Below, one piece after another: positions 31,630-33,267 of a stretch of DNA of 64,000 bases. This stretch comes from Cyanobacteria bacterium SIG28 (GTDB lineage Bacteria > Cyanobacteriota > Vampirovibrionia > Gastranaerophilales > Gastranaerophilaceae). Position numbers and translations under genes: made by a program. The notes beneath the pieces are model-generated. The model saw nothing but the letters and a program-made list of their open reading frames with translations. It was not told the DNA's origin and searched no databases. Positions within the stretch are counted from its first letter, which is position 1. Each line of letters starts with the position of its first letter. The stretch lies in the NCBI GenBank assembly GCA_015152525.1, contig SUTU01000010.1, positions 30,447 through 94,446 on the forward strand. The letters are read 5' to 3'.

Positions 31630-31716
31630 ACAAAAATTTTAGCATAAATTGTTATAGTGAGTAAATAAACAAAAATAAAAAAGAAAATACCTATGCTCTT
31701 TTATTTAGTATGAAGC

Positions 31717-31797
31717 TTGTAGCGTGTAATTTATTGCACGGAATAAATAAACAAAATAAAAGAGGATGATTTTAAATCATCCTCTTTTATTTACGCC
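31717..31797 (+). repeat. 81-bp direct repeat, copy A (left of higBA)
   Basis: Matches 32620-32700 at 80 of 81 positions: GCAATTTATTGCACGG-type palindrome, a linker, the AGAGGATGATTTTAAATCATCCTCT hairpin, and a final TTTACGCC that equals the tRNA-Arg 3' end. The two copies bracket the toxin-antitoxin pair. Confidence 0.9.
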
Positions 31798-31838
31798 AGA
31801 GTTGACGAGTTTCGAACTTGGTTAATTATGAATGTTAT

Positions 31839-32144
31839 TTAAGATACTTTTAAATCCAAGCTTAGTGTATACCCAAGTCCGTCTAAAATCTTCGAAATAG
31901 TTAGCAATGTTGGAGCTTTTGTTTTGCAGTGCAAAATATCAACAAGATTGGCTCTGTGCATTCCTATTTGTTCAGCAAATTGTTTAACAGTTGTTCTTGC
32001 TTTAATAACCTGTTCTAATGCTCTATAAAAAGCACTATAATCTCCGTCTTCAACATAAGCTAATATACTTTCTTTTAAATATAATTGCTGAAATTCAATA
32101 TCTTGTAGTCTTTGGTTAATATAGTCATCATGTTTTATATTCAT
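31839..32144 (-). CDS. higA: HigA-type antitoxin (XRE helix-turn-helix)
   Basis: 101 aa. HTH region TVKQFAEQIGMHRANLVDILHCKTKAPTLLTISKILDGLGY is a typical XRE fold. It overlaps the toxin stop by 4 bp (ATGA), toxin first, as in HigBA systems. It is expected to bind the toxin and repress the shared promoter; the palindrome at 32478-32497 is a candidate operator. Confidence 0.85.
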   Translation of the reverse strand: MNIKHDDYINQRLQDIEFQQLYLKESILAYVEDGDYSAFYRALEQVIKARTTVKQFAEQIGMHRANLVDILHCKTKAPTLLTISKILDGLGYTLSLDLKVS

Positions 32145-32470
32145 TCTTTGTTACTCCTATTTATATATTCTTCATAATATTTATTAGCTTTTTTAATTGT
32201 TTTTGTTTGGTCAGATTTATCGCTACCAGCAAGAATCAAAATTATTACATCCTCAAGTTCTTTAAAATAAATTCTATAACCACTACCGAAATGAAATCTA
32301 AGTTCTGATAATTGACTATTTTGAAGAGGCTTCCAATCACCCTTGTTTCCTTCAGCTAGTCTATCTAATCTTGTTAATATTTTAACTTGAAAAGTTGGAC
32401 TGAGTTTTTCTAACCAATCAACATAAGGGCATTTCCCATCTTCAGTTGTATAGTATTCAATTTGTTTCAT
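32141..32470 (-). CDS. higB: HigB/RelE-type (Gp49-like) toxin
   Basis: 109 aa from ATG 32470 (MKQIEYYTTEDGKCP), preferred to the track start because the promoter lies over the extra residues. The family hallmarks are YVDWLEKLSP, LRFHFGSGYRIYF and ILILAGSDKSDQTKTI, of the phage-derived Gp49-like/HigB toxin group. These act as ribosome-dependent mRNA endonucleases. The message appears leaderless: the -10 box ends six bases before the ATG and no RBS exists. Confidence 0.85.
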   Translation of the reverse strand: MKQIEYYTTEDGKCPYVDWLEKLSPTFQVKILTRLDRLAEGNKGDWKPLQNSQLSELRFHFGSGYRIYFKELEDVIILILAGSDKSDQTKTIKKANKYYEEYINRSNKE

Positions 32471-32476
32471 AATATT

Positions 32477-32505
32477 AGTGTAGCAAATTTGCCACACAAA
32501 GTCAA
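32477..32505 (-). promoter_or_regulatory. higBA promoter and operator palindrome
   Basis: -35 TTGACT, 17-bp spacer, -10 TACACT. A 20-bp near-perfect palindrome GTGTAGCAAATTTGCCACAC (32478-32497), with one mismatched pair, overlaps the spacer and -10, the expected place for autorepression. Confidence 0.75.
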
Positions 32506-32552
32506 TCGACTTTCTTATAAGGGGTAAATTAGTATTTTACAGTTATTTGTTT

Positions 32553-32700
32553 GGATTCAAGAAGTAATCGCAACACTAACGCCTCAAGTATAATAAAAAC
32601 AATACAGAAAGGAGTTAGTTTGTAGCGTGCAATTTATTGCACGGAATAAATAAACAAAATAAAAGAGGATGATTTTAAATCATCCTCTTTTATTTACGCC
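32553..32700 (+). repeat. Interspersed repeat copy 2 fused to 81-bp direct repeat copy B
   Basis: 32553-32643 matches the 27401 repeat. From 32620 it runs into the second 81-bp copy, ending TTTACGCC at 32700 and continuing with TGCCGGATTGTCTTG. Confidence 0.8.
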
Positions 32701-33193
32701 TGCCGGATTGTCTTGACCTGTTCGCATTAAACGTGTCTACGGATTTTTGCTTCTTACCACTGCGCCTCGCGCTAAACGGCACCGCTCATACTTGCAGAAA
32801 ATTCTGATTTATGCAAGTTGCTATGCAACTTATGCAAATCAAAATTTTCTGACGCGTATTTCGTCTCGCCTTCACTATGTTCAGTCGTGCCTCTGCTCGG
32901 CTTGTCGAACGCCAGCAGGGCTTTGCCCTGTGCGCACTAATCTAAACAAAGGCGTAAATAAAAAGAGGTCAAATTTATTGACCTCTTTTTATTTACGCCT
33001 GCCGCGATTGTCTTGCTCGTTCGCGTTTAACGGCAATTCCGCATTTTGCTTCAGTATTTTCAATACTTCGCAAAACTGCTCCAGCCTCAGCTCACTCGCG
33101 CTCGAACACGTAAGGACTTTGTCCTTGGCTATTTCTCGTCGCTGACACACAAAAATTAAATAGGATAGGAACTTTGTCCTATCCTATTTAATT
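32691..33193. repeat. Units carrying tRNA-Arg 3' ends with individual terminator hairpins
   Basis: TTTACGCCTGCCG(CG)ATT, the complement of the tRNA-Arg 3' end, recurs at about 32693 and 32992 besides the true tRNA. Each is preceded by a hairpin of different sequence. Between them are imperfect palindromes, notably 32795-32851 (about 57 bp), CAGGGCTTTGCCCTG (32916-32930) and AAGGACTTTGTCCTT (33112-33126). No gene is credible; the track ORF 32747..33145 is repeat. Confidence 0.75.
33158..33190 (-). terminator. tRNA-Arg terminator
   Basis: AAATAGGATAGGA/TCCTATCCTATTTA hairpin directly after the tRNA 3' end. Confidence 0.75.
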
Positions 33194-33267
33194 TACGCCT
33201 GCCGCGATTCGAACGCGGGACCCTCTGCTTAGAAGGCAGATGCTCTATCCAGCTGAGCTACAGACGC
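33194..33267 (-). tRNA. tRNA-Arg (UCU)
   Basis: Acceptor GCGTCTG/CAGGCGT, D-arm GCTC..GAGC, anticodon loop CTTCTAA giving UCU (reads AGA/AGG, likely the main arginine codons in this AT-rich genome), T-arm CCGCGTTCGAATCGCGG. 74 nt, no encoded CCA. Confidence 0.95.

Follow-up and report, generated by a model that had tools for sequence, protein, structure and literature searches.

We consider it probable that non-coding, non-autonomous integrative cassettes of ~180-200 bp, longer where they carry cargo, insert at the T-loops of tRNA genes (TTCGA^R) in the bacterial order Gastranaerophilales. In such a cassette, the replacement tRNA 3' end is followed by a terminator, an inverted T-arm remnant (GAY-GA-GAAC...), a small hairpin, the 5' strand of a T-arm and, last, a conserved hairpin module of about 95 nt (GCG...CAAGAC), hereafter EL. 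On insertion, the 5' part of the host gene and the 3' end supplied by the cassette would form a tRNA gene that is intact and self-terminating; the host's former 3' end would be displaced downstream, behind EL. A recombinase acting in trans would move the cassettes. Folded together, EL and the inverted T-arm would make up a DNA site from which EL protrudes where the crossover takes place, comparable to a folded attC or to the attP hairpin of the CTX phage. Tandem units and cargo would be gained or lost later, by homologous recombination between tails and terminators.

Cassettes and cargo behind tRNA-Arg(TCT)

The window, meaning the whole stretch of 64,000 nucleotides analysed (G000:C19:30447-94446, from a draft genome of 1.89 Mb), contains an intact tRNA-Arg(TCT) gene at 33194..33267 on the minus strand, which is also the strand of all cassette and cargo features located below. 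The original prediction described cassette-like units ending in copies of the 3' tail of this tRNA, and its layout is borne out. The tail AATCGCGGCAGGCGT is exact within the tRNA at 33195-33209 and again at 32995-33009; a third copy, AATCCGGCAGGCGT, is one base shorter (32696-32709), and near 31790 only GGCGTAAA and a hairpin are present. Each copy is accompanied by a perfect hairpin, as had been noted; the hairpins differ in sequence, except that the last two are identical, and the segments sized at about 0.2, 0.3 and 0.9 kb correspond to spacings of 200, 299 and 903 bp. Since the 15-base tail is rare genome-wide (in 1.9 Mb, with up to two mismatches, two exact sites, both here, and one two-mismatch site elsewhere), and since the covariance model of EL matches the window at 33004-33106 (E=1.4e-22) and at 32704-32775 (E=8.5e-07), the recurrence of the tail at this locus is not due to chance.

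The 200- and 299-bp segments are cassettes. In each, a terminator hairpin follows the replacement tRNA 3' end, an inverted T-arm remnant comes next, and EL lies exactly within the T-loop of the following tRNA-end copy. By analogy with the empty and filled pair described below, we read the 3' end of the intact tRNA, from the T-loop on, as the contribution of cassette 1. Next come its terminator hairpin (AATTAAATAGGATAGG...CCTATCCTATTTAATTT, 33153..33193), a left arm that is a decayed inverted copy of the T-arm (..CGACGAGAA.., with the GAYGAGAAC motif, 33127..33146), the small hairpin AAGGACAAAGTCCTT (33112..33126), the copy ACGTGTTCGA of the T-arm 5' strand (33102..33111) and, at 33010..33101, a type A EL, the structured hairpin GCG...AAGAC that gives the stronger of the two matches. 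The specificity of left arms for the host tRNA is seen over 73 units and is weak in this cassette alone. The exact second copy of the tRNA 3' end lies at 32995..33009. In cassette 2, the terminator (32950..32994) has a stem that is prolonged by the tRNA end in inverted form (AGGCGT...ACGCCT). A T-arm strand copy (CTGGCGTTCGA, 32905..32915) is followed there by a long EL-like module of ~195 nt (32710..32904) whose conserved EL 3' part gives the weaker match. Behind it stand the shortened third tRNA 3' end (32696..32709) and terminator hairpin 3 (32657..32695), the latter within an 84-bp direct repeat.

The original prediction grouped all three segments as cassette-like units, which holds for the first two and not for the third. 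The largest segment is not an EL cassette: it is of different make, because it has no EL and is bounded by the 84-bp repeat (31714-31797 and 32617-32700, 98% identical). The repeat carries a REP and includes the fourth tail copy, so that its second occurrence (31714..31797) consists of the GGCGTAAA remnant, a hairpin and the REP. Between the two repeats lies higBA, as first read from the sequence; Pfam assigns the gene at 31839..32144 to a HigA-type antitoxin (PF21716) and the gene at 32141..32464 to a HigB-type toxin (Gp49/DUF891, PF05973). The cargo end AACCAAGTTCGAAACTCGTCAACTC (31799..31823) resembles an end found in another genome (L044), where it too adjoins this tRNA tail. The segment may have arrived via recombination between the 84-bp repeats. 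A dispersed REP-like repeat, GTAG-CGTGCAATTTATTGCACG, occurs in the window at 31717-31741 and 32620-32644, and also in L018, L019 and L015.

A structured module coupled to tRNA genes

The conserved hairpin module in the T-loop, its order-wide presence and the same arrangement at other tRNA loci had gone unnoticed in the original prediction, which proposed searching the genome for further sites with the same tail and hairpin. The exact 15-base tail is confined to the tRNA-Arg locus; the arrangement itself is found at seven tRNA loci of this genome, namely Leu(CAA), Gln(TTG), Gly(GCC), Leu(GAG), Gly(TCC), Ile(GAT) and Arg(TCT). In the sense of the tRNA, the unit runs from the tRNA through a terminator hairpin, left arm, small hairpin and 5' T-arm strand (TTCGA) to EL, and 3' of EL comes the 3' end of the same tRNA, from the T-loop on, often with another terminator. 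The insertion point, read from the sequences, is TTCGA^R, apparently with a one-base repeat.

Covariance model R1, run on 241 genomes of the order Gastranaerophilales, detects EL in 194 genomes and in 38 of 50 genera, with up to 32 copies per genome (G005; 30 in G232). In a sample of the phylum, 148 of 386 genomes contain EL; among the matches listed, all come from the family of the genome studied here or from another family of this order, and none from outside it. The relatives carrying EL are mostly metagenome-assembled genomes of uncultured bacteria. Some of these, titled uncultured Acinetobacter (L208, L214, L234, L235, L239), are probably mislabelled Gastranaerophilales. Plasmids gave no match, and among viral contigs a single one had one exact pattern match, a second pattern being absent from all.

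Association with tRNA genes is both frequent and oriented. For 91 of the 146 distinct ELs, a tRNA gene in the same sense stands less than 700 nt upstream, 26 tRNA kinds being involved; two ELs lie near a tRNA gene of opposite sense, and most first ELs lie 59-103 nt from the tRNA end. Judged by reading, a tRNA-like tail also terminates many of the remaining ELs, and a contig end is often nearby. In 67 of 73 units, the tail behind EL is most similar to its own tRNA. Left arms resemble the antisense of their own tRNA more than that of permuted partners (z=13; 0/5000 permutations), and the own tRNA is the best of 25 kinds in 22 of the 73 units, where about three are expected. Within these arms, the antisense T-loop GAYTCGAAC commonly reads GAYGAGAAC, a motif that recurs at many tRNAs and that would swap two pairs for a GA/GA tandem beside the exit point of EL.

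EL, a candidate recombination site, conserves its fold while its sequence varies. In an alignment of 40 copies, the GAGC.GAG and GCGA blocks are nearly invariant, and both RNAalifold and a structure made by hand give an outer stem, inner stems and a variable tip. In the outer stem, a tandem GA/GA mismatch alternates with two Watson-Crick pairs (13-15 of 33 copies). Over 108 distinct copies, 90% of cells pair, there are 502 double changes where shuffles give 134, and sliding the register makes the pairing collapse in every case; this alignment was fitted to the structure and is biased accordingly, and an unfitted alignment gives changes on both sides at 13 of 19 pairs. Rfam scans returned no match to EL above the gathering score. 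At 23 firm pairs, G.T makes up 1.2%, versus 7.1% in the acceptor stems and 9.6% in the T stems of tRNAs at the same loci (p=2e-11 against acceptor stems). EL is reversed in tRNA-Pro copies, so that both orientations occur. The scarcity of G.T pairs and the reversed copies together favour a constraint at the level of DNA rather than an RNA function; the low G.T count could also be explained by exchange of whole modules.

EL also occurs without a tRNA: in tandem after terminators of protein genes, in partial antisense copies of 5S rRNA, in a structured locus and as inverted pairs in G232. It may therefore move on its own, as a mobile module that the tRNA cassettes use. Several of these settings deserve description. 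Protein genes in L054, L056, L316, L317 and L320 have EL arrays directly behind the T-run of their intrinsic terminators. Partial antisense 5S copies near a 5S gene, with ELs in their loops, are found in L214 (480-960), L218 and L230; L214 has three, the middle one being a longer EL-like module. Another setting is a structured locus (GCGTTTTAAGACTTCACAGGTTCGGGTCC ... GGCAGTTTTAAGAG), one loop of which holds EL; this locus has no Rfam match at the gathering score and recurs in L205 (3270-3480), L194, L209, L219 and L248. A second family of small hairpins, CTCTGCCGA...TGAGAGG, nests inside EL and vice versa (L248, L190, L251, L233, L214, L048), and G232 (L305, L306, L310) has large repeated palindromes with two inverted ELs, which are REPIN-like.

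Empty and filled sites and the manner of insertion

The clearest comparison comes from tRNA-Gly(GCC), which in most congeners has an encoded CCA, often with TCCATTTAAA directly after the tRNA. In the filled locus L325, the tRNA is followed by TAATAAAAAAGAGTCC..., a left arm, EL and a second tail, the end of which lies 192 bp from the tRNA end. The flank after this second tail is, from base 1, 90% identical over 172 bp to the flank that directly follows the tRNA in the empty locus L330. Given this match and this distance, it is the distal tail that the site had originally; the proximal tail came with the cassette, as did the terminator. L352 and L353 point in the same direction less closely, with 73% identity and a match that begins 28 bases in.

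The original prediction also called for a comparison of the locus across strains. At tRNA-Arg, 20 congeners hold none, one or two units, as well as integrase-bearing inserts and Fic or ParE-like genes (the integrases were read from sequence, with a PF00589 match at G004:C49, and the ParE label was given by eye). Cassette occupancy varies between species, and mobility is well supported. Repeated insertion of small elements, the first of the two explanations originally offered, is upheld by the empty and filled sites and by the differences between species, with the exact site moved from the tRNA 3' end to the T-loop. Tandem duplication, the other, does occur, as unit repeats of 179 and 213 bp attest, but is secondary; in L055 a GIY-YIG gene is repeated along with the unit. 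In L327, L335 and L347, cassettes are truncated by a repeat that these loci share, ACCTTTTAACAGGACATTTGGTCGGAAG. A non-autonomous cassette is the simplest account, since it explains the empty and filled pair, the intact tRNA, the matched tails and the tandem arrays.

Foremost among the alternatives, if unlikely, is that EL is an independent palindromic mini-element, similar to REP or RPE sequences, with a preference for hairpin loops; tRNA-end copies would then stem from separate local duplication, and landing in a T-loop would be harmless. The AAGAC|GCG junctions of EL arrays after terminators, the loops of partial 5S copies, the inverted pairs of G232 and the nesting with a second hairpin family are what such an element would leave. 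It would also leave tail copies free of any T-loop insert, and these are almost absent. In 88 of 98 cases, in a sample mostly of loci chosen by EL and hence biased, the first tail copy directly follows the end of EL; inspected by eye, the other ten are mostly shifted EL ends or reversed ELs, two have other inserts, and an intact T-loop is found in one of the 98 (tRNA-Met, L153). At loci chosen by tRNA alone (tRNA-Gly(GCC) and tRNA-Arg), an EL-type module likewise precedes the second tails seen. Two further observations speak against independence: the proximal trailer of L325 is of a cassette type common to several species and does not duplicate the native flank, and the left arm with its GAYGAGAAC motif recurs at many tRNAs.

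Trailers also bear on a target-primed insertion of a bacterial SINE-like kind, with a nick at the T-loop and a target duplication of variable length. The proximal trailer begins like the native flank in L342, L352, L032, L038 and L042, which implies a copied end of variable length, and in L032, L038 and L352 the duplicated tail continues into a native-looking trailer, as a fixed cassette end does not predict. The 3' end of EL is indeed fixed at the T-loop, and tail duplications range from ~16 to ~80 nt (L032, L038, L042, L352). This process is nevertheless improbable: tRNA-Gly is followed by cassette-type trailers shared among species and not by native ones, and the low G.T content and double orientation of EL point to DNA. 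A selected RNA, such as a tRNA-end decoy or a trailer-derived regulatory RNA, is more improbable still. It would suit the strong conservation and covariation and the nearly constant sense near tRNA genes, but the share of G.T pairs in EL is six to eight times below that in tRNA stems, EL may be reversed, occupancy changes between species and the unit comes after a terminator. Ordinary decayed tandem tRNA duplicates with exchange of terminators, which tandem units with near-identical terminators in L009, L037 and L055 might recall, are scarcely credible and were rejected, because the copies examined begin at the T arm and have no D or anticodon arms, the very features by which the original prediction would have recognised such duplicates, and because an insertion of ~192 bp separates the filled from the empty site.

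Under the integrative cassette account, the enzyme would have to act from elsewhere: in agreement with what was first noted, no integrase-type ORF lies within the units. The tyrosine recombinase in trans that the original prediction suggested seeking has a candidate in a solo enzyme of 179 aa (PF00589, L132; G000:C2:9095-9631), with relatives in 166 of the 241 genomes and up to 11 per genome. Its link to EL is weak (140/194 genomes with EL versus 26/47 without, p=0.03, the latter tallied by hand and the statistic ignoring shared descent), and the EL-rich genome G067 has no relative of it. Y1 transposases occur in 79 of 241 genomes, 69/194 with EL and 10/47 without (p=0.08, with the same hand tally and disregard of descent), and G005, with its 32 ELs, has none. 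With associations so weak and non-exclusive, neither the solo recombinase nor the Y1 transposase was retained as sole mover. The PF00589 proteins also include two longer ones, at C8 and C25, which by length and match strength are probably XerC and XerD and are still candidates. At G000:C6:8745 and downstream of tRNA-Ile, ELs have RAYT-like (Y1) genes in their vicinity.

In predicted folds of single-stranded DNA, the left arm pairs with the T-arm strand in 61 of the 73 units; it pairs with the tail in only about half (36 of 73), which speaks against the account. For the unit in the window, the fold is well below that of its shuffles (z=-6.1), although it has no full three-way junction. From these folds, an attC-like reading of the site is plausible, and not more. 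Going further, and only tentatively, one may imagine an integron counterpart built on tRNAs, in which one trans recombinase would use any tRNA T-loop as attachment site and insert cassettes from a folded single strand, the T-arm being rebuilt as a duplex with EL protruding, order-wide and without an integron integrase; we regard this extended scheme as rather unlikely.

Relation to known mobile systems

No description of the EL cassette system was found in the titles and abstracts of the literature searched. With REP and REPIN sequences and their RAYT enzymes, EL shares the hairpin form, the inverted pairs of G232 and the RAYT-like genes of some genomes. EL ends, however, lack the GTAG/GGAG foot, the GTAG-CGTGCAATTTATTGCACG repeats of the same genome are a separate family, and the EL-rich G005 has no Y1 transposase. 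Rickettsia palindromic elements are palindromic modules of ~100 bp tolerated inside other genes; EL differs from them in its coupling to duplicated tRNA ends and to a cassette.

The attP hairpin of the CTX phage is recombined by the host XerC/XerD. A folded single strand and an enzyme provided in trans are ideas that the mechanism proposed for EL shares with it, whereas the CTX target is dif and the target here is the tRNA T-loop. Integron cassettes with their attC sites are likewise small and arranged in tandem, with a palindromic structure (in EL, a candidate site) that varies in sequence and keeps its fold, and with occasional cargo, represented in the EL system by higBA in the window and the GIY-YIG gene in L055. 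The differences are that the integron integrase (TIGR02249) scores above the cut-off in 0 of 241 genomes, that the candidate EL site is built on the T-arm of a host tRNA and that most units have no gene. A system whose empty and filled sites are known raises the questions of how an enzyme in trans lands on the universal T-loop, and whether recombination of folded single-stranded DNA exists beyond integrons and CTX-like phages.

Insertions in tRNA genes usually involve larger elements, each with its own integrase for a given tRNA. The integrative elements of tRNA 3' ends (prophages, ICEs, islands and tycheposons) likewise insert at a tRNA, supply a replacement 3' end and generate a direct repeat on their distal side, and integrase-bearing elements use the same tRNAs here, their integrases at some sites being unannotated and read from sequence. 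EL cassettes resemble them in that sites occur both empty and filled and the tRNA 3' end is directly repeated, as seen in L330/L325 and, with a poorer match, in L352/L353; they differ in having no integrase gene of their own, a size of ~190 bp and, in most cases, no genes. EL cassettes are best read as a variant of the integrative elements at tRNA genes, in which one module and one gene-less cassette type serve 26 kinds of tRNA within an order of gut bacteria, adjoin cargo such as toxin-antitoxin genes and leave the tRNA gene intact.
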